A DNA stretch of 64,000 nucleotides from Aureisphaera galaxeae (lineage in GTDB: Bacteria > Bacteroidota > Bacteroidia > Flavobacteriales > Flavobacteriaceae), in NCBI RefSeq assembly GCF_028561275.1, contig NZ_JAQQTF010000002.1, forward strand, positions 838,812 to 902,811. The letters are read 5' to 3'. Within the stretch, counting starts at the first letter, position 1, and every line of letters starts with the position of its first letter. Positions 12,512 to 39,083 of this stretch are shown piece by piece. The notes under the pieces were generated by a model. It did not search any database. It saw nothing but the letters and a program-made list of their open reading frames with translations, and was not told where the DNA came from. A program made the position numbers and the translations under genes.

Positions 12512-13768
12512 CTAAAGTCCAAAAGCGGCTTTTACCTTATCTACGTAATCTAATTTTTCCCAGGTGAACAATTCTACCTCAACCGTTTTCTTTTCTCCGT
12601 TAGGGGTGGTAAATGTTTTGGAAACCACTTCATTGATTCGTCCCATATGGCCATAGGCTGCTGTTTCTGAATACATAGGCTGACGTAGCTTTAAACGTTC
12701 TTCAATAGCGGCAGGGCGCATGTCGAAAATCTCAGAAACTTTGTTTGCAATCTCACCGTCGGTCATATCCACATTAGAAGTGTCATAGGTATCCACAAAG
12801 ATTCCCATAGGCTCAACCACACCGATTGCGTAACTTACCTGCACCAACACTTCATCACACAATCCAGCAGCTACTAGGTTTTTGGCAATATGCCTTGTGG
12901 CATACGCTGCAGAGCGGTCTACTTTACTAGGGTCTTTTCCACTAAAAGCACCACCTCCGTGAGCACCTTTTCCTCCGTAAGTATCTACAATGATCTTACG
13001 TCCGGTCAATCCGGTATCCCCGTGAGGACCTCCTATTACAAACTTCCCAGTAGGGTTAATGTGATAGGTTATATCGTCATTAAACAAGGCTTGGATCTCT
13101 GGCTTGGATTGCGCCTTAATTCTAGGGATTAAAATATTAATAATGTCGTCCTTAATTTGAGCCAACATCCTTTCATCGTCTGTATCAAATTCGTCATGCT
13201 GGGTAGATACTACAATAGAGTCGATACGCGCTGGTCTATTGTCATTGTCGTATTCTATGGTTACCTGACTTTTAGAGTCAGGGCGCAAGTATCCAATTTC
13301 ACTTCCGTCGCGACGCATGGCAGCCAGCTCTTTTAGGATGCGGTGGGATAGGTCCAACGCCAAGGGCATAAAATTGTCAGTTTCGCGCGTAGCATAACCA
13401 AACATCATTCCTTGGTCCCCGGCACCTTGTTCTTCTTTAGATTCACGATCCACCCCACGGTTAATGTCATCACTCTGTTCGTGAATGGCAGAAAGCACAC
13501 CGCAACTATTTCCGTCGAACTGATATTCACCTTTAGTATAACCAATACGGTTAATCACGTCCCTAGCGATCTTTTGTACATCTAGGTATATGTTAGACTT
13601 TACCTCTCCGGCCAGTACTACCTGTCCTGTGGTTACCAAGGTTTCGCAGGCTACTTTCGATTGGGGATCGAAGGCCAAGAAATTATCGATTAATGCATCA
13701 CTAATCTGATCTGCAACTTTATCTGGGTGTCCTTCAGATACACTTTCTGAAGTAAATAAATATGCCAT
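12512..13768 (-). CDS. metK: S-adenosylmethionine synthase
   Basis: 418 residues, making SAM from methionine and ATP in the cytosol. Family signatures are intact: [14 protein letters not shown] near the N-terminus, the hexapeptide GAGDQG in [12 protein letters not shown], the P-loop-like [20 protein letters not shown], and a C-terminal methionine-binding region. Length is somewhat above the E. coli enzyme (384) because of short insertions, which is normal in Bacteroidota. A 124-nt leader upstream looks like a SAM-II-like riboswitch with its own terminator, so the gene appears feedback-controlled by its product. It is monocistronic. Confidence 0.98.
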
Positions 13769-13779
13769 ACAATGGTTTT

Positions 13780-13834
13780 AAAAAAATAACTTCTGTTTAG
13801 AGGTAAGATTTGACGAGAATGGGTCGGGAAGTTA
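13780..13834 (-). terminator. Expression platform (terminator/antiterminator) of the metK riboswitch
   Basis: On the minus strand TAACTTC (13834-13828) can pair with GAAGTTA (13793-13787), followed by seven T (13786-13780). Between the arms lies GTCAAATCTTACCTC (13814-13800). It is complementary to GAGGACAGATTTGAC (13886-13872) in the aptamer, with 4 + 9 paired bases around a 2x2 mismatch. That alternative pairing uses the aptamer's 5' strand and would block the terminator. Confidence 0.72.
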
Positions 13835-13835
13835 A

Positions 13836-13890
13836 CACTGCCTTTAGCATTTTTTCTCGAGGTTGCAATCAGTCAAATCTGTCCTCAAAT
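13836..13890 (-). ncRNA. SAM-II-like (SAM-II/SAM-V) riboswitch aptamer upstream of metK
   Basis: The minus-strand leader reads GAGG, then ACAGATTTGACTG, then ATTGCAA, then CCTC, then an A-rich linker and ATGCTAAAGGCAGTG. GAGG/CCTC form stem P1. GATTTgAC, ATTGCAA and GCTAAA are the conserved cores I recall for SAM-II/SAM-V aptamers. ACTG in the loop can pair with CAGT after GCTAAAGG, as the pseudoknot of this class requires. Placement directly before metK fits. The class call is by recall, not by a covariance-model search. Confidence 0.7.
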
Positions 13891-13898
13891 TGTGACGG

Positions 13899-14549: not shown

Positions 14550-14750
14550 ATGTCTATAAAGAAATACAAAGATCCTTGGTTTTATATCGCTACGATCGGA
14601 ATTTGCCTATACGGACTGATTTTTTGGATTAACTATGATTTCGAATATCTATCCGATATAATTTTCACGGTTCTAGTAGGAGCAACACTACTTATTTTGC
14701 TAATTTTCTCAGTGAGCGGATTAGTAAAATCGAGAAAAGAGCGAAAATAA
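14550..14750 (+). CDS. Small two-helix membrane protein
   Basis: 66 residues with two predicted transmembrane helices (WFYIATIGICLYGLIFWI, about 10-27; IIFTVLVGATLLILLIFSV, about 37-55) and a basic C-terminal tail (KSRKERK). It has no recognised domain. It sits just upstream of the ilv leader promoter, and its stop (14748-14750) is followed within 4 nt by the -33 TTG of that promoter. The coding call rests on composition and a sensible topology; function unknown. Confidence 0.6.
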   Translation: MSIKKYKDPWFYIATIGICLYGLIFWINYDFEYLSDIIFTVLVGATLLILLIFSVSGLVKSRKERK

Positions 14751-14753
14751 ATT

Positions 14754-14784
14754 TTGATTTCTAAAAAACTTTTCCAAACATTTG
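14754..14784 (+). promoter_or_regulatory. ilv operon promoter
   Basis: TTG (14754-14756), 20-nt gap, AACATTTG (14777-14784), a near-consensus -7 box. About 40 nt here are nearly identical to the thr promoter at 22902-22931. Transcription would start at about 14790, on the leader peptide's ATG. Confidence 0.75.
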
Positions 14785-14789
14785 TATAG

Positions 14790-14840
14790 ATGAATATCCA
14801 AAATGTCATTACTGTCATTATTAACATTGTCATTCCATGA
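14790..14840 (+). CDS. Ile/Val-rich leader peptide 1 of the ilv operon
   Basis: A 16-codon ORF, MNIQNVITVIINIVIP, with six Ile, three Val and no Leu codons. It is followed by GGGACGG (14847-14853), which can pair (6 of 7) with CCTTCCC of the terminator, and by a strong terminator hairpin. This is the layout of ribosome-mediated attenuation. Stalling at Ile or Val codons when their charged tRNAs are scarce would favour antitermination. The ATG lies only 6 nt after the -7 box, so the mRNA may be leaderless. Confidence 0.82.
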   Translation: MNIQNVITVIINIVIP

Positions 14841-14886
14841 CGATGCGGGACGGTATTCATTGATATTATAACAAAATAATATATCG

Positions 14887-14920
14887 AAAAAGCCTTCCCA
14901 GAAAACGGGAAGGCTTTTTT
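14887..14920 (+). terminator. Attenuator terminator 1 (ilv)
   Basis: AAAAAGCCTTCCC (14887-14899) and GGGAAGGCTTTTT (14907-14919) form a perfect 13-bp stem with loop AGAAAAC and a T tract to 14920. Confidence 0.9.
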
Positions 14921-14932
14921 GTTGGAATACAT

Positions 14933-14989
14933 ATGAAGCATACAATTGTCATTACTGTCATTATTATCGTCTCGCCCTTCCGGCGCTGA
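14933..14989 (+). CDS. Ile/Val-rich leader peptide 2 of the ilv operon
   Basis: An 18-codon ORF, MKHTIVITVIIIVSPFRR, with five Ile and three Val codons. It begins 13 nt after attenuator 1's T tract, with no visible promoter between. It shares the 20-nt string TGTCATTACTGTCATTATTA with leader 1. Its last codons and stop overlap GCGCTGAT (14983-14990), the antiterminator strand of the second attenuator. A ribosome that reaches the stop would therefore cover that strand and allow termination. Confidence 0.82.
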   Translation: MKHTIVITVIIIVSPFRR

Positions 14990-15010
14990 TGCAGACAGTC
15001 ATGACCCATT

Positions 15011-15047
15011 AAAAAGACCTGTATCAGCGCGATACAGGTCTTTTTTT
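15011..15047 (+). terminator. Attenuator terminator 2 (ilv)
   Basis: AAAAAGACCTGTATC (15011-15025), loop AGCGC, GATACAGGTCTTTTT (15031-15045): a perfect 15-bp stem followed by T to 15047. ATCAGCGC (15023-15030) is the exact complement of GCGCTGAT (14983-14990), giving an 8-bp antiterminator. Confidence 0.9.
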
Positions 15048-15210
15048 ATGCCCAATACATAAAAGTGAACATCGGAATGAAAATGAATTTAAATAACTGT
15101 AAATCAATTAAATAAATCAAAACCAATTGAAATTAGACATCTTCCAAAACGTAAAAAACGAAATCTCACTGCGTGAAGGATGGTCTACTTTCGATCTAAT
15201 TTAACAAGTC

Positions 15211-16104
15211 ATGTATTACGATCAGGAAACACAAGTGTATTTAGACGGTGCTTGGATCAAAGCAAGCGAAGCACAAACAGGACTCTATTCCCAAACCCTT
15301 CATTATGGCAATGGGGTCTTCGAAGGAATCCGGGCGTACCAAACCGACGACGGTCCGCAGATTTTTAAAGCCAAAGAGCATTACGAACGTTTTCTGTACT
15401 CTGCGGAGGTCATGCACATTCCCTGTCCTTATTCGGTGGATGAATTGATCAAATTGAGCTATGAACTCTTAGATAAGAATGGTTTCGAAGATGCCTACAT
15501 CCGCCCATTGTTGTACCAAGGAGAGATGATGACTTTACAACCCGCCGAGAAATCGCACCTATTGCTGTGCGCTTGGGAATGGGGCAAGTATTTAGGAACT
15601 AAAGAAGTGAGGCTCATGACCTCTTCGTATCAGAGACCCAATCCGAAATCCACCCACATTCAGGCAAAACTCGTTGGTCACTATACCAATTCTATCATGG
15701 CCACGACCGAAGCTAAGGCTAATGGATATGATGAAGCCCTGTTGTTGGATCAGTACGGTTATGTGGCCGAAGGGCCGGGAGCCAATTTTTTCTACGAAAA
15801 GAATGGCGTGCTCTATACCTGTCCATTAGGGAATATCCTTTCAGGAATCACTCGACAAACGGTTTTCGAAATGGCCGAGGAACTGGAAATCGTAATCCTA
15901 GAGAAACATTTTACGCCTAGCGATGTATACAAAGCCGATGGTGCCTTCTTCACGGGAACCGCTGCGGAGATAGCTCCCATAAAGTCCTTGGATGGCAAGG
16001 AATTCAACAAACCTTGGAAAGAAACCTTGGGATATCGCCTTTCGGAATTGTACCAAAAGCTCGTACGGGCACATACTACTCACTTTTTTGAACCCGCATA
16101 CTAA
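15211..16104 (+). CDS. ilvE: Branched-chain amino acid aminotransferase
   Basis: 297 residues, a class IV (fold type IV) PLP aminotransferase making Ile, Val and Leu from their 2-keto acids. Typical blocks are [14 protein letters not shown] near the N-terminus, [10 protein letters not shown], the [13 protein letters not shown] segment holding the candidate PLP lysine, and [13 protein letters not shown]. First gene of ilvEDBNCA. It lies about 160 nt after attenuator terminator 2, and no good second promoter is seen in that gap. Its stop shares a base with the ilvD start (TAATG). Confidence 0.95.
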
Positions 16105-17780
16105 TGGAACTCAACAAATACAGCAAAACAGTAACCCAGGATCCCACGCAACCAGCAGCCCAAGCCATGTTGCACGCCATAGGACTCACGCGTGAGGATT
16201 TCGAAAAGCCATTTGTAGGGATTGCCAGTACGGGATACGAGGGAAATCCGTGCAATATGCACTTAAACGATTTGGCGAAACGCGCTAAAGAAGGAACCCA
16301 GAATGAAGGATTGGTCGGACTTATTTTCAACACCATTGGGGTAAGCGATGGCATTTCCATGGGAACTCCGGGAATGCGTTATTCATTGCCTTCTAGGGAC
16401 ATTATTGCCGATTCCATGGAAACGGTGGTGCAGGCCATGAGTTATGACGGACTCATTACGGTCGTAGGCTGCGACAAGAATATGCCCGGTGCTTTAATGG
16501 CCATGATCCGACTCAATCGCCCTTCCATTCTTGTGTATGGGGGAACTATTGATTCTGGTTGCCACAATGGAAAGAAACTGGACGTGGTTTCTGCATTTGA
16601 AGCATGGGGAAGCAAAGTAGCAGGCACCATTACCGAAACCGAATACCAACAAGTGGTAGAAAAAGCCTGTCCAGGAGCGGGAGCTTGTGGCGGGATGTAC
16701 ACGGCCAATACGATGGCTTCAGCCATTGAAGCATTGGGGATGGCATTGCCCTACAATGCCTCCAATCCTGCTTTAAGTGACGAGAAAAAGAATGAATCGG
16801 TAGCTGCGGGAGAAGCCATGCGAACTTTATTGGAAAAGGACATCAAACCTAGTGATATAGTCACCCGAAAGTCACTGGAAAATGCAGTTCGATTGGTGAC
16901 GGTGCTCGGTGGATCTACCAATGCAGTGCTTCACTTCTTGGCAATTGCCAGAGCTGCGGACATTCCCTTTACCCTGAGGGATTTTCAGGCCATAAGCGAT
17001 AGCACACCTTTCTTGGCCGATTTAAAACCTAGCGGAAAATATCTGATGGAAGACATTCACGAACTGGGTGGAATTCCCGCCGTGCTAAAATACCTCCTTA
17101 GAAAAGGATTGTTGCATGGAGATTGTCTAACGGTTACCGGTAAAACCTTGGCCGAAAATGTAATCGATGCACCCAATCTTCCTGAAGGGCAGGATGTAAT
17201 TCATCCTGTTGAAAAACCCATTAAACCTTCTGGGCATCTTCAAATGTTGTTCGGAAATCTAGCCGCAGAAGGCTGTGTGGCCAAGATTACAGGAAAAGAA
17301 GGGCTAAAGTTTACGGGCAAAGCCAAAGTATTCAATAGCGAGTTTGAAGTAAACCTGGGCATAGCCGAAGGAAAAGTAGAAAAAGGGGATGTAGTAGTCA
17401 TCCGGTACGAAGGCCCCAAAGGAGGGCCCGGAATGCCCGAAATGTTGAAGCCTACTGCTGCCATTATGGGAGCGGGATTGGGGAAAGAAGTTGCCCTCAT
17501 TACCGATGGCCGCTTTTCAGGAGGAACCCATGGTTTTGTAGTGGGACATATCACCCCAGAAGCTCAAGAGGGAGGAACCCTCGCCTTGGTTGAAAATGGG
17601 GATGAAATCACTATCGATGCTGAGCAGAATTCAATTCAGTTGCACGTAAGCGACGCAGAATTGGCTGCCCGAAAGGAAAACTGGACGGCACCACCGCTCA
17701 AATTCAGAAAAGGAGTACTGTACAAATACGCAAAAACGGTTTCATCGGCCTCACAAGGCTGTGTAACCGATGAGTTTTAA
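16104..17780 (+). CDS. ilvD: Dihydroxy-acid dehydratase
   Basis: 558 residues, the iron-sulfur dehydratase that forms 2-keto acids in Ile and Val synthesis. The cluster cysteines are visible in GCDKNMPG and [16 protein letters not shown]; the C-terminal domain shows [12 protein letters not shown] and [17 protein letters not shown]. Length is normal for the family (about 560). It overlaps the ilvE stop by one base and is followed by ilvB after 23 nt. Confidence 0.98.
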
Positions 17781-17803
17781 TCTTCACATCTAAAAATAAA
17801 ATT

Positions 17804-19537
17804 ATGGAATTACAAACCGTAACTCAAACCAAGACTTCAAAGGCTACCAAAACCCATATGGCAGGAAGCGAAGCGGTCGTTCATTGTTTATTGGCCGAAG
17901 GTGTGGAGACTGTCTATGGCTATCCTGGCGGAGCCATTATGCCCGTATACGATGAGTTTTATAAATACCAAGATCAACTCCAACATATTTTAACCCGACA
18001 CGAACAAGGGGCTACCCATGCCGCGCAGGGCTATGCCCGAATTTCAGGAAAAGTAGGGGTTGCTATTGCTACTTCGGGTCCAGGAGCTACCAATCTCATT
18101 ACAGGAATTGCAGATGCGATGATCGATTCTACACCCATGGTTTGCATCACCGGGCAGGTAGGAGCACACCTTTTGGGCACAGATGCCTTTCAGGAAACCG
18201 ATATCATCGGTATTTCTACACCGGTAACCAAATGGAATTATCAGATAACGAAGGCTTCAGAAATTCCCGAAATCTTTGCCAAAGCCTTTTATATTGCTCA
18301 AAGCGGAAGACCGGGACCGGTATTGATCGATATTACCAAGAATGCGCAGTTCGAAAGTTTCGATTTCGCCTATGAAAAATGTTCGGCCATTCGAAGTTAC
18401 CACCCCGTTCCTCAATGCGACCCGAATGCACTGCAGGAAGCGGCAGATCTGATCAATAACGCCAAAAAGCCCTTCATTGTTTGGGGACAGGGCGTGATTT
18501 TAGGCAAGGCCGAAGAGGAATTGAAAACCATGGTCGAAAAAACGGGAGTTCCAGCTGCTTGGACCATTTTAGGGGCTTCGGCTATTCCTACTGCTCATCC
18601 GTTAAATGTTGGGATGGTAGGAATGCATGGGAACTATGCGCCCAATATCTTGACTAACGAATGTGATGTGCTGATAGCTATTGGTATGCGATTCGATGAT
18701 CGTGTAACCGGAGATTTAAATACCTATGCCAAGCAGGCCAAGATCATTCATTTTGAAATCGATCCAGCTGAAATCAATAAAAACGTTCCTGTTGATGTGG
18801 CTGTATTGGGAGACGCCAAGACCACACTTTCAGAACTTATACCCTTACTACAACCTAATGAACATACTGCTTGGCGACAACGTTTTACCGAATTGCAGGC
18901 CGTAGAGCAGGAAAAGGTCATTCAGAATGATCTATTCCCAACTAAGGAAGGATTAACCATGGGTGAGGTAATGCTTGCCATTAACAAAGAAAGTGAAGGC
19001 AAGGCTGCCATTGTAAGTGATGTGGGACAGCATCAGATGATTGCCTGTCGTTATGCCGAGTTCAACGAAACACGAAGTAATATCACTTCTGGTGGATTAG
19101 GAACCATGGGCTTTGCCCTACCAGCAGCTATTGGAGCCAAAATGGCGGCTCCCGAAAGAGAAGTTATTGCCGTGATTGGCGATGGGGGATACCAAATGAC
19201 CATTCAGGAACTGGGAACCATCTTTCAGAATAGAACACCCGTAAAGATTGTGGTGCTTAACAATGAGTTTTTGGGAATGGTACGGCAGTGGCAGCAGTTG
19301 TTTTTCGAAAAGCGCTACGCCTCAACCGAAATGACCAATCCCGATTTTGTGAGTATTGCCAAAGGCTATCACATAGAAGCGGATAGAGTCACAAAACGAG
19401 AAGAATTGCATGAAGCAGTTCGTGATATGATTCAATTTGAAGGACCGTACTTCTTGGAAGTATGTGTAGAAAAGGAAGACAATGTATTCCCAATGATTCC
19501 GTCGGGAGCATCAGTATCCGATATCCGATTGGAATAA
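17804..19537 (+). CDS. ilvB: Acetolactate synthase, large (catalytic) subunit
   Basis: 577 residues, the TPP-dependent enzyme condensing pyruvate with pyruvate or 2-ketobutyrate. The N-terminal domain begins after about 20 variable residues with GSEAVVHCLLAEGVETVYGYPGGAIMP (in part), containing the catalytic glutamate region RHEQGATHAAQGYARISG. The C-terminal TPP motif is GDGGYQMTIQELGTIFQ with VVLNNEFLGMVRQWQ. Acts with IlvN, encoded next. All key blocks are intact. Confidence 0.98.
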   Translation: MELQTVTQTKTSKATKTHMAGSEAVVHCLLAEGVETVYGYPGGAIMPVYDEFYKYQDQLQHILTRHEQGATHAAQGYARISGKVGVAIATSGPGATNLITGIADAMIDSTPMVCITGQVGAHLLGTDAFQETDIIGISTPVTKWNYQITKASEIPEIFAKAFYIAQSGRPGPVLIDITKNAQFESFDFAYEKCSAIRSYHPVPQCDPNALQEAADLINNAKKPFIVWGQGVILGKAEEELKTMVEKTGVPAAWTILGASAIPTAHPLNVGMVGMHGNYAPNILTNECDVLIAIGMRFDDRVTGDLNTYAKQAKIIHFEIDPAEINKNVPVDVAVLGDAKTTLSELIPLLQPNEHTAWRQRFTELQAVEQEKVIQNDLFPTKEGLTMGEVMLAINKESEGKAAIVSDVGQHQMIACRYAEFNETRSNITSGGLGTMGFALPAAIGAKMAAPEREVIAVIGDGGYQMTIQELGTIFQNRTPVKIVVLNNEFLGMVRQWQQLFFEKRYASTEMTNPDFVSIAKGYHIEADRVTKREELHEAVRDMIQFEGPYFLEVCVEKEDNVFPMIPSGASVSDIRLE

Positions 19538-19562
19538 TTATAAAACAGCTAAAGAAAACGAT

Positions 19563-20096
19563 ATGAGTTCAGAAGAAAAGAAACTGTACACTGTTTCCAT
19601 TTATACCGAAAACAACGTGGGATTGCTGAATCGTATTTCGGCCATTTTTCAACGTCGGCACATCAATATTGAAAGTATCAACACTTCCATTTCTGAAATT
19701 GAAGGGGTATCCCGATGGACCATTGTGGTGAAGGTGACCGAACCACAGATTCAGAAGATTATTGGTCAGATAGAAAAGCAGGTCGATGTCATTCGGGCCT
19801 ATTATCATATGGATGAAGAAACCATTTATCAGGAGTGTTGCCTTTTCAAAATTCAGAGTGATCTCTTTTTCGAAGATCCTAACATTCAGAAAATCATTTC
19901 GGCAAGCAATGTGCGCATTGTCACTGTAGAGCGCGAGTTTTTTGTACTCGAAAAAGCCGGGCGCAGAAGCGAAATAGAATCCCTATACCAACAACTAAAA
20001 CCTTTTGGGATTATGCAATTTGTACGTTCAGCACGTATTGCCATTACCAAGGAATCCTTAAACATTAGTCCATTACTAACCGCATTTCAAGCATAA
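19563..20096 (+). CDS. ilvN: Acetolactate synthase, small (regulatory) subunit
   Basis: 177 residues. An N-terminal ACT domain ([20 protein letters not shown], then [15 protein letters not shown]) binds the feedback inhibitor valine; a second ACT-like C-terminal domain follows. Length is typical of the IlvH/IlvN class (about 160-180). It is 25 nt downstream of ilvB and completes the holoenzyme, so the pathway has both allosteric and attenuation control. Confidence 0.96.
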
Positions 20097-20106
20097 TAAT
20101 AAAACG

Positions 20107-21606
20107 ATGAAAAATTATTTCAATACCCTCTCATTACGTGAACAATTGGCTCAATTGGGACAGTGCCGATTTATGGAAGCTTCCGAATTTCAGGATGGCA
20201 TTAAAGCCCTCGAGAACAAAAAAGTGGTCATTGTAGGATGCGGTGCCCAAGGCCTGAATCAAGGAATGAACATGCGCGACTCTGGCCTGGATGTTTCCTA
20301 TGCGCTCCGTGCTTCTTCCATTGCAGAAAAAAGACCTTCCTATCAAAACGCAACGAACAATGGATTTGAAGTGGGAACCTATGAAGAATTAATTCCCTCG
20401 GCCGATTTGGTTTGTAATCTAACACCGGATAAGCAACATACGAGTGTGGTGAATGCCGTAATGCCGCTTATGAAACAAGGCGCCACATTGTCCTACTCAC
20501 ATGGCTTCAATATTGTGGAAGAAGGCATGCAGGTGCGTGAAGATATTACCGTAATCATGGTGGCTCCCAAATGTCCCGGAAGTGAAGTGCGCGAAGAATA
20601 CAAACGAGGATTTGGAGTGCCAACTTTGATTGCTGTACATCCACAGAACGATCCTGAAGGAAAAGGATGGGATCAAGCCAAAGCCTACGCCTTTGCCACA
20701 GGAGGGCATAGAGCGGGTGTTTTGGAATCATCCTTCGTGGCTGAGGTAAAGAGCGATCTTATGGGAGAGCAGACCATTCTATGTGGCGTGTTGCAAACAG
20801 CATCGATCCTTTGTTTTGATAAAATGGTAGCCTTGGGAGTGGAAAAGGGATATGCTGCTAAGCTCATTCAGTATGGTTGGGAAACCATTACCGAAGCCCT
20901 AAAACATGGAGGAATTACCCACATGATGGATCGTCTTTCCAATGGAGCGAAGATAAGAGCCTATCAACTTTCGGAAGAGTTACGAACCTTACTTACGCCA
21001 TTGTTTGAAAAGCATATGGACGATATCATAAGCGGAAGATTTTCTTCTGGAATGATGGCCGATTGGGCCAATGACGATGCCGATTTATTACGTTGGAGAG
21101 CTGCTACGGCAGAAACGGCTTTCGAAAAGACAGAAATCACCGCTGAACATATTTCAGAACAAACCTATTTCGATCATGGTACTTTGATGGTCGCCTTTGT
21201 GAAGGCGGGTGTAGAATTGGCTTTCGATACCATGGTAGCTTCCGGAATCATTGCAGAATCGGCCTACTACGAGTCGTTACACGAATTACCGCTTATTGCA
21301 AATACAGTAGCCCGCAAGAAGCTCTACGAGATGAACAGGATCATTTCCGATACCGCAGAATACGGTTGCTATTTATTCGATCATGCTGCCAAACCATTGT
21401 TGGCCGAATTCATGGAGCAAATCAGTTTAGAAGATATAGGTAGGGATCGTGATGCTGAAAATATCGATAATGTGGAGCTTATTGAAGTGAATGAAGCCAT
21501 TGCGTCTCATGAGATCGAAACTGTAGGCAAGACATTGAGAAGTGCTATGACCAATATGAAGGCGATCAACATCGCTGCTCAGGAAGAACTGGTTGCTGTT
21601 GGCTAA
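20107..21606 (+). CDS. ilvC: Ketol-acid reductoisomerase, class II (long form)
   Basis: 499 residues, matching the long class II KARI of E. coli and plants rather than the 330-residue class I. The Rossmann NAD(P)H motif is [21 protein letters not shown] (in part); the metal and substrate residues lie in [19 protein letters not shown] and in the duplicated helical C-terminal domain. It reduces and isomerises acetolactate. It overlaps the ilvA start by one base (TAATG). Confidence 0.97.
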
Positions 21607-22868
21607 TGGAAGTCGTTTCTATATATCGACCTACAGTTACCGCTGTAGAAGAGGCAGCTTCTTTATTGGAGGGCGTAGTGGTAAAAACACCACTACTGAA
21701 AAGCCAACGACACTCCCGCTTGTTCGGGGGTGACGTGTATCTGAAACGGGAAGACCTTCAGCCTGTCCGATCCTATAAAATCCGTGGAGCCTATCATAAA
21801 ATGGCCACTTTGGTAGGATTGGAACGGGAACAGGGTGTCATCTGTGCCAGTGCTGGGAATCATGCCCAAGGGGTGGCCTTGTCCTGTAAATTGCTCAAAG
21901 TAAAAGGAACCATTTATATGCCCGCTACCACACCCATGCAGAAGATTGAGCAGGTCCAGCATTTTGGTGAAGGGTACGTAGAAGTTTGTCTCGAAGGGGA
22001 TACCTTCGATGATGCGTACGGAGCAGCAATGCTCGTTTCAAAGGCAGAGAAAAAGACATTCATCCATCCGTTTGATGATGAAAAGGTGATTGAAGGCCAG
22101 GGTACTATTGGATTGGAGATTTTAGAGCAATCGTCGGAGCCCTTGGACTATGTCTTTGTACCTGTCGGCGGTGGCGGATTGGCTGCAGGATTGAGCAGTG
22201 TTTTTCAACAATTGTCACCTTCAACCAAAATCATTGGGGTAGAACCGGAAGGTGCTCCTGCCATGAAAAGATCGATAGAGCAGGGAAAGAATGTGTATTT
22301 ACCGCAGATCGAAAAATTTGTGGACGGTGCTGCAGTAAAGCAGGTGGGAGAACGAAACTTTCAGATATGTAAGGATACCTTACATGAAGTGATTACGGTT
22401 CCCGAAGGAAAGATTTGTGAAACCTTGTTGGAATTGTACAACAAGGATGGCATTATCGTAGAACCAGCGGGAGCATTGAGTGTGGCTGCCTTAGACTACT
22501 ATTCCGAAGAAATTAAAGGGAAAAAGGTGGCCTGTGTGGTCAGTGGTAGTAATAACGATATTACTCGAACCGCTGAAATTAAAGAAAGGGCCTTGCTCTA
22601 TGCCAACGTGAAACATTATTTCATAGTGAAGTTTCCACAACGAGCAGGTGCTTTGCGACAATTCCTTACGCAGGTGTTGGGTCCGGAGGATGATATTACC
22701 TATTTCGAGTATACTAAGAAGACAAATCGGTCTACCGGTTCGGCGGTGGTAGGGTTGGAGTTGAAGTCACCCGAAGATTTTGAACCCTTGGTAGCGCGCA
22801 TGAAAGCCCATCAATTTTATCAGGATTATCTAAACGACAAGCCCGAATTGTTCCAGTTTTTGGTATGA
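21606..22868 (+). CDS. ilvA: Threonine ammonia-lyase, biosynthetic
   Basis: 420 residues. The PLP fold type II domain has the Schiff-base lysine in the motif VRSYKIRGAYHKM, the phosphate loop in SAGNHAQGVA and VGGGGLAAGL. A C-terminal ACT-like regulatory domain (about 330-420: YFIVKFPQRAGALRQFL) gives isoleucine feedback in this family. It makes 2-ketobutyrate for isoleucine. Last gene of the ilv operon. No terminator is seen before the thr promoter, so read-through into the thr leader is possible. A second, shorter paralogue without the ACT domain is at 40088. Confidence 0.95.
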   Translation: MEVVSIYRPTVTAVEEAASLLEGVVVKTPLLKSQRHSRLFGGDVYLKREDLQPVRSYKIRGAYHKMATLVGLEREQGVICASAGNHAQGVALSCKLLKVKGTIYMPATTPMQKIEQVQHFGEGYVEVCLEGDTFDDAYGAAMLVSKAEKKTFIHPFDDEKVIEGQGTIGLEILEQSSEPLDYVFVPVGGGGLAAGLSSVFQQLSPSTKIIGVEPEGAPAMKRSIEQGKNVYLPQIEKFVDGAAVKQVGERNFQICKDTLHEVITVPEGKICETLLELYNKDGIIVEPAGALSVAALDYYSEEIKGKKVACVVSGSNNDITRTAEIKERALLYANVKHYFIVKFPQRAGALRQFLTQVLGPEDDITYFEYTKKTNRSTGSAVVGLELKSPEDFEPLVARMKAHQFYQDYLNDKPELFQFLV

Positions 22869-22901
22869 TTTAGAAATATTCGAAAAATAACCCACGAAAT
22901 T

Positions 22902-22931
22902 TTGATTTCTAAAATTCTTTTCAAACATTTG
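22902..22931 (+). promoter_or_regulatory. thr operon promoter
   Basis: TTG (22902-22904), 19-nt gap, AACATTTG (22924-22931). From AAATTTTGATTTCTAAAA through AAACATTTGTAT the sequence matches the ilv promoter, apart from one 1-nt indel and two or three substitutions. Confidence 0.75.
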
Positions 22932-22940
22932 TATGGAACA

Positions 22941-22991
22941 ATGAAGCATATCATTACAAATACCACCACGACAACTACCGGCACTAGCTGA
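22941..22991 (+). CDS. thrL: Threonine-rich leader peptide of the thr operon
   Basis: A 16-codon ORF, MKHIITNTTTTTTGTS, with eight Thr and two Ile codons, comparable in composition to E. coli ThrL. GGGATGG (22997-23003) just after the stop can pair (6 of 7) with CCTTCCC (23031-23037) as antiterminator. It begins with the same MKH as ilv leader 2, and the downstream region aligns with the ilv attenuator 1 region. Confidence 0.85.
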   Translation: MKHIITNTTTTTTGTS

Positions 22992-23026
22992 CGGCAGGGA
23001 TGGTATTGTTTTATATAACAAAATAG

Positions 23027-23056
23027 AAGGCCTTCCCGAAACGGAAGGCTTTTTTT
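23027..23056 (+). terminator. Attenuator terminator of thr operon
   Basis: AAGGCCTTCC (23027-23036), loop CGAAAC, GGAAGGCTTT (23043-23052), T tract to 23056. Confidence 0.9.
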
Positions 23057-33830: not shown

Positions 33831-33860
33831 TACACACAAAGTTCAAATCTTTATTGAAAT

Positions 33861-33982
33861 GTTATCAAGAAAGGTGGAGGGATTAGACCCTTTGAAGCCT
33901 TAGCAACCCTTAGCTTGCGATTATCCAATCAAAAACTAAGAAGGTGCTACATTCTACGCCAGAATTTCTGGGGATAGATAAC
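33861..33982 (+). ncRNA. SAM-I (S-box) riboswitch, copy 1
   Basis: P1 is GTTATC (33861-33866) with GATAAC (33977-33982). Inside are the S-box signatures AAGAAAGGTGGAGGGA, GACCC, TTGAAGCCTTAGCAACCC and AAGGTGCTACATTC. Downstream, GACCCA (33987-33992) can pair with TGGGTC (34006-34011), followed by a T-rich run: a possible terminator, though weak. It controls the trans-sulfuration/hom operon. Confidence 0.93.
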
Positions 33983-34107
33983 GCAAGACCCATGTCCTTC
34001 CGATTTGGGTCCTATTTTCTTAATAACATTTTTCTATTAAAGTTCGTCTCAAGACGCATTTTGACTTTTTGGTTTAATCAATTTATTAACTCAAAAAAAT
34101 TAGAAAA

Positions 34108-38859: not shown

Positions 38860-38885
38860 TCCACAGTTCATTAAAAGACTGATTT

Positions 38886-39004
38886 GTTATCAAGAAAGGT
38901 GGAGGGAATAGACCCTTTGAAACCTTAGCAACCCTTAGTTCACGCTGATTCTTATCAGTATCTAAGAAGGTGCTACATTCTATCCCGCTGTGGGAATAGA
39001 TAAC
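38886..39004 (+). ncRNA. SAM-I (S-box) riboswitch, copy 2
   Basis: P1 is GTTATC (38886-38891) with GATAAC (38999-39004). Core strings AAGAAAGGTGGAGGGA, GACCCTTTGAAACC, TTAGCAACCC and AAGGTGCTACATTC match copy 1 almost base for base. The 80 nt after it contain a T-rich run (TTTATTTTTTCTT) preceded by TTTCCC, which could pair with GGGAA in the last aptamer hairpin. No clean terminator is seen, so the mode of control is unclear. It controls the metH-metF operon. Confidence 0.93.
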
Positions 39005-39083
39005 GCAAAACCAATTTCCCTTTATTTTTTCTTGATGGCATTTCTTATTTGATAGGTTAGTTTACTTATTCAAAAAAATTGCT

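Follow-up and report, generated by a model that had tools for sequence, protein, structure and literature searches.

Attenuation, the textbook example of gene control through the position of a ribosome, is usually depicted with a single gate. The enteric ilvGMEDA, thr, his and trp operons are controlled by leader-peptide attenuators, one per operon, and tandem T-boxes exist as well. For mefA/msrD, two attenuators with the leader peptides MefAL and MsrDL have been described that respond to one macrolide signal from one promoter, which the authors considered a double lock avoiding basal expression (PMC10314930). A double lock made of two same-signal attenuators is thus already known. The leader of Salmonella mgtCBR is reported to harbour two leader ORFs with the signals ATP and proline, which act additively, and tandem riboswitches have been found before metE (PMC3641672). 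Several Gammaproteobacteria have a rimP leader for which a tandem second terminator and a possible antiterminator were noted (PMC2965389). Leader-peptide attenuation before amino-acid operons has furthermore been proposed from transcript data of F. psychrophilum (PMC9723704). In Streptomyces ilvB, changes of leader codons were reported to have no effect (PMC1262725), so that the anatomy of a leader alone is no proof of its mechanism.

Here we analysed a stretch of 64,000 nucleotides from Aureisphaera galaxeae (the window), in which a leader region precedes an operon with the gene order ilvE-D-B-N-C-A (NCBIfam). This region quite probably consists of two ribosome-mediated transcription attenuators in series, which would respond to one signal, charged tRNA-Ile and tRNA-Val, and multiply their read-through. 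Its parts, their pairing, conservation and order, and the absence of a visible inner promoter, are read from sequence and folding models.

The ilv leader region in the window

Two short ORFs with runs of codons for the product of the operon, as expected for leader-peptide attenuators, are located upstream of ilvE (Table 1). Direct reading agreed with the earlier note on their codons, namely six Ile and three Val in leader 1, five Ile and three Val in leader 2 and no Leu in either. By sequence and folding, each leader ORF is followed by an intrinsic terminator ahead of the first gene, and both modules are far more stable than their shuffles (z of -6.0 and -6.1). In module 2, the stop codon of the leader (14987-14989) lies inside strand 2 of the antiterminator, where the consensus of 33 loci is TGATACAG. 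Leaders 1 and 2 have a 20-base identical stretch, TGTCATTACTGTCATTATTA (14804-14823 and 14947-14966), perhaps the result of a duplication or conversion.

Table 1. Features of the ilv leader region and operon, in positions of the window.
Feature	Position	Strand	Details
Candidate promoter P1	14752-14784	+	TTTTG (14752-14756) and AACATTTG (14777-14784), by eye
Leader peptide 1	14790-14840	+	MNIQNVITVIINIVIP, then stop; module 1 alignment, 34 loci
Antiterminator strand 2, module 1	14847-14858	+	GGGACGGTATTC
Terminator 1 (strands 3 and 4)	14886-14920	+	class GCCTTCC/GGAAGGC
Leader peptide 2	14933-14989	+	MKHTIVITVIIIVSPFRR, then stop; module 2 alignment, 33 loci
Antiterminator strand 2, module 2	14983-14994	+	GCGCTGATGCAG
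Terminator 2	15011-15047	+	stem 15011-15045, T-run to 15047; class CCTGTATC/GATACAGG
Candidate promoter/operator P2	15065-15198	+	dyad 15088-15113, -7-like TACTTTCG 15186-15193; profile conservation
ilvE, first structural gene	15211-16104	+	NCBIfam TIGR01122
ilvD, ilvB, ilvN, ilvC, ilvA	16104-22868	+	NCBIfam

A generic scan, which disallows stems that run into the T-run, returned neither a sigma-70-type promoter nor a terminator at the locus. When positions 14700-15215 were compared with Rfam, no family reached its gathering score, and no known T-box or riboswitch family was found. Thr_leader (RF00506) gave one plus-strand match per module with 34 and 35 bits, below the gathering cut-off of 55. 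Elsewhere in the window we observed a SAM-II riboswitch (13834-13892) upstream of a probable metK (12512-13768, minus strand, by eye) and two SAM-I riboswitches (33859-33984 and 38884-39006).

In the candidate promoter P1, AACATTTG contains five of the six fixed bases of the Bacteroidetes -7 box TAnnTTTG. At this locus, our promoter script chose another box with five of six bases, 34 nt upstream, and flagged no TTG. A 42-base stretch at P1 recurs with 90% identity before thrA, which also lies in the window. This gene (23102) is preceded by a single Thr/Ile leader, MKHIITNTTTTTTGTS, and one terminator (22897-23054), with the promoter stretch common to ilv; a single leader-peptide attenuator thus appears to be in use at another operon of this genome. 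The -7 box of Bacteroidetes is described as spanning -12 to -5 (PMC9723704), and by this rule the +1 would be at 14789, one base before the ATG of leader 1. Leader 1 would then be nearly leaderless, and leader 2 would need internal initiation. As leaderless mRNAs are reported to make up only 5.5% in F. psychrophilum (PMC9723704), such a leader 1 would be unusual.

The earlier note had claimed two attenuators in series behind one promoter-like site before leader 1, with none visible between them. The sequence supports this part of the note, as the best -7 match before leader 2 in the window has four of six bases, consistent with a serial arrangement; the steeper switch that the note expected is a prediction. 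Of 49 tandem loci, 48 have a -7-like box with at least five of six bases no more than 45 nt before leader 1 (25 with TTG upstream), compared to 21 of 51 later leaders (two with TTG). Any ATG has such a box in 36% of cases and one with TTG in 6.5%; later leaders are therefore near background for promoter-like boxes. In L022, the first leader is doubtful and a perfect -7 box is located 10 nt upstream of the second; in L023, a box also precedes the second leader (by eye). L022 and L023 are probably not serial. A perfect box was also found 34 nt before leader 2 of L195.

Conservation in the family and spread in the Bacteroidota

We searched 199 genomes of the family, nearly one per genus, of which 154 harbour ilvD. 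Upstream regions were taken for 130 of these (24 were left out), and 129 were counted, one being without upstream bases. Our detector of Ile/Val leaders followed by a terminator found no module in 67 regions, one in 46, two in 15 and three in one, which are undercounts: second modules were missed in G140, G094 and G174, and G051 and G151 scored zero and still match covariance model 1. In total, 79 modules were found, compared to five on the reverse strand and one in 1290 dinucleotide shuffles of the 129 regions, and we rejected a chance origin of the modules.

Most terminators belong to two classes, GCCTTCC and CCTGTATC, for which covariance models were built; training included some of the loci searched. 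Among the matches listed, down to an E of about 3e-8 for model 1 and 1.4e-7 for model 2, module 1 was found in 57 and module 2 in 40 of the 199 genomes. Both models matched in 21 genomes, from which G188 was removed as a single place matched by both. The earlier note had suggested an alignment across relatives as a check, and both modules indeed occur together in the remaining 20 of 199 genomes among the matches listed, with module 1 before module 2 in 20 of 20 and a gap of 6-155 nt. L282 (G126:C11) has an Ile-rich leader before a lone ilvA-like gene (by eye); its model-1 match was in range and left out.

Furthermore, we applied the detector to the best 80 of 169 named ilvE loci, some with short upstream DNA and two (L040 and L073) labelled as other phyla, and found two modules in 27 (among them the doubtful L022), three in one, one in 41 and none in 11. 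Among the records with at least two modules are some named as Flavobacteriaceae, Crocinitomicaceae and Chryseobacterium, and, from the Cytophagales, Roseivirga and Pontibacter. At the level of the order, 30 loci were reduced to 17 by leaving out seven repeat genomes and six genomes of 0.6 Mb; one of these 17 is itself a repeat, and five of the 17 have two modules. Three modules were found in Aequorivita (L068) and G093, and also in L066 and L071 if TTG is taken as the start codon of the first leader (by eye). The second and third modules look near-identical in Aequorivita and relatives, suggesting a local duplication.

On an ilvE tree of 73 loci, which leaves out the seven of the 80 with less than 300 bases upstream, the tandem state requires 13 changes, compared to a mean of 22.6 and a minimum of 17 after shuffling (0 of 200 as low). 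The tandem state is thus clustered on the tree, with gains and losses inseparable. The ilv operon of Bacteroidota could tentatively be seen as run by evolvable arrays, a reading to which we give somewhat less than even weight: one to three equal-signal gates would be gained by local duplication and lost again, their number would set leak and gain by selection, and the near-identical Aequorivita modules would represent a recent step. The same doubled or tripled layout in other Bacteroidota suggests that chains of equal switches tune gene output.

Serial attenuation as a general habit was rejected: ThrA was matched in 49 genomes, and in the upstream regions read for 30 of these we found a single Thr leader in two and a tandem in none. 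Among other leaders, L280 (356578-356683, G044:C1) and L281 (287632-287737, G152:C3) have the Asn-rich peptides MRNNNNNNNFNNPNA and MTINNNNNNFNNPNF and a terminator before a gatA-like gene, the first 300 residues encoded by the gene of L280 scoring 266.8 bits with NCBIfam gatA, whose cut-off is 481.1. These leaders may form an Asn-sensing attenuator for the Asp-tRNA(Asn) amidotransferase. A His-rich leader was seen before a hisG-like gene in L287 (G063:C38; gene by eye).

Antiterminator pairing and predicted mechanism

An antiterminator was found in each module, as in the earlier note, and its pair counts (6 of 7 and 8 of 8) turned out to be too low. In our folds, strand 3 of module 1 forms 10 pairs with the RNA from 14847 on, enclosing a helper hairpin, and strand 3 of module 2 forms 13 pairs with the RNA from 14983 on. 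The folds were repeated with a masking ribosome, which was assumed to cover 12 nt beyond the codon in its A site. With the ribosome on any Ile or Val codon of the window leaders, strand 2 is free and strand 3 keeps its 10 (module 1) and 13 (module 2) upstream pairs, compared to two and none at the stop codon. In the 49 tandem loci, the means are 9.4 and 11.1 pairs with the ribosome on Ile/Val codons and 0.7 and 1.4 at the stop, a contrast that is partly trivial because less RNA is free at the stop. Shuffled upstream RNA gave 4.8 and 6.1 pairs compared to 9.7 and 11.7 observed, and the observed number exceeded the mean of the shuffled control in 49 of 49 and 50 of 51 cases. In the folding models, terminator and antiterminator thus compete, and a ribosome that has reached the stop codon masks the latter.

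We also compared how well each strand 3 pairs with its own and with the partner antiterminator in the 49 tandem loci, using the last two modules of triple loci. The own antiterminator was stronger in 74 of 98 tests, with mean pairing energies of -9.6 kcal/mol for own, -6.4 for partner and -5.6 for shuffled tails; own pairing was in the best 5% of shuffles for only 52% of the 98 modules. When strand 3 was taken from foreign lineages, pairing changed from -9.6 to -7.4 kcal/mol for first and from -9.3 to -6.7 kcal/mol for last modules, and at only 45% of loci did 10% or less of the foreign strands pair equally well. In module 2, whose structure was derived from the same alignment as tested, 52 cells keep a pair with both sides changed. 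Column shuffles gave 17.3 such cells, with none of 500 reaching the observed number, and slid structures gave 6-18. Five of the nine compensated pairs are in the 1:2 hairpin, and the terminator has compensatory changes as well. The consensus fold of module 1 contains the terminator only.

Ribosome stalling, termination and a multiplied response are what we infer from these parts. Polymerase would start at P1, and a ribosome that reaches the stop codon of leader 1 would cover strand 2, so that terminator 1 forms. A ribosome stalled on Ile or Val codons would leave strand 2 to pair with strand 3, and polymerase would continue. Leader 2 would then repeat the test, only on read-through RNA. As read-through would be the product of two probabilities, the basal leak would be squared down and the fold-induction multiplied. 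The earlier note had proposed an AND-like logic; since both leaders read the same amino acids, we replace this by the multiplication of one signal.

Alternative explanations and comparison with known systems

Below both attenuators, we found a conserved element (P2) that contains TTGAACATCAT, a dyad around ACTGATAATCAGT, and TAATTTCGA, and that is mostly located between -170 and -30 relative to the first gene. Its profile matches 84 of the 129 upstream regions at E of 0.01 or less, 60 of them outside the training set and 39 in regions without a detected attenuator; at E up to 10 it matches 110, several of which are expected by chance. In a search of 41 whole genomes, in which some matches are training rows, 21 of 25 matches at E below 1e-3 are just before ilvD or ilvE; of the other four, one is on another contig (G008) and three are elsewhere. 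An identity as structured RNA was rejected, as RNAalifold gave no consensus structure. The element may be the promoter-operator region of an unnamed regulator, a candidate that we draw from its sequence. In L004 (contig C17), a DNA match near the element adjoins another gene.

Because of the -7-like box below both attenuators, part of the transcripts may bypass both, and nothing else makes the magnitude of a serial effect as uncertain. Most ilv transcription could even come from P2 under a transcription factor, with the serial attenuators controlling a minor share. The wide occurrence of the profile, also where no attenuator was detected, its position before ilvD or ilvE and the missing RNA structure would fit such a promoter. 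However, we saw no TTG -33 beside the TACTTTCG box in the window (by eye), and, as an argument, tandem attenuators would hardly be kept if they controlled little. We regard a dominant P2 as rather unlikely. We are similarly doubtful that the second attenuator serves solely to lock out leak a second time, giving very low basal expression with no gain in fold-change or steepness. The two leader peptides that answer one drug in mefA/msrD are a precedent for it (PMC10314930), and many relatives manage without a series, having no module (67 of 129) or one (46 of 129) by the undercounting detector. In contrast, leader codons, antiterminator and masking geometry are maintained in each module separately, as in a gate that must also open on starvation. 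A double lock and a multiplied response differ mainly in the measured response.

That the two leaders sense different things (Ile versus Val, or different tRNA species), integrating two signals as in Salmonella mgtCBR, appears improbable. Val codon choice does differ somewhat: GTC makes up 47% of Val codons in first and 65% in later leaders (10% in ilvD and 12% in the genes of the window), and GTG 24% and 9%. However, the mean numbers per leader are alike (5.7 Ile in both, 2.5 and 2.0 Val), and in the window, Ile and Val are encoded by no codons other than ATT, ATC and GTC in both leaders. A preference for GTC might favour a scarce tRNA; the bias may reflect this or the pairing of strand 1, and the data fit both alike. 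Leu codons, absent from the window leaders, are present in first leaders (28 of 49) and later leaders (29 of 51) of the tandem loci, a point against the reading that we prefer.

The reading that we prefer is two attenuators in series multiplying one signal. A natural series of one, two or three equal gates in related species would permit a direct test of the multiplied response, of its cost in maximal output and of why some lineages keep two. In addition, the Bacteroidota, with genes without Shine-Dalgarno sites, would be suited to studying how transcription and translation are coupled.

Attenuators of Bacteroidetes/Chlorobi were reportedly covered by a comparative study of 2004. In the literature that we covered in part, no same-signal attenuator series before an amino-acid operon was found, which is weak evidence. 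The window locus resembles the enteric attenuators in a leader ORF rich in the product amino acids, the 1:2, 2:3 and 3:4 pairing, an intrinsic terminator and a biosynthetic operon downstream. It differs from them in having two attenuators in a row, no Leu codons and a first leader that is probably nearly leaderless. Tandem riboswitches and T-boxes likewise place two sensing terminators in series, but there the RNA senses a metabolite or tRNA directly, without a leader peptide. For the rimP leader, we found no mention of an amino-acid leader peptide (PMC2965389). With mgtCBR, the locus has in common that a single leader RNA carries two leader ORFs, each of which governs elongation, whereas the signals there are different and additive and the structures are unlike intrinsic terminators. 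The 5′ regions of F. psychrophilum also belong to amino-acid operons of the Flavobacteriaceae, and we found no serial layout described for them (PMC9723704). Another close system is mefA/msrD, with two ribosome-mediated attenuators and their terminators on one transcript, from one promoter and for the same signal. There, the second attenuator follows mefA and acts on msrD only, whereas here both are in one leader and would control the whole operon. As far as we found, what is new is a same-signal series within a single leader of an amino-acid operon, its occurrence in several Bacteroidota lineages, and its extension to triple arrays.
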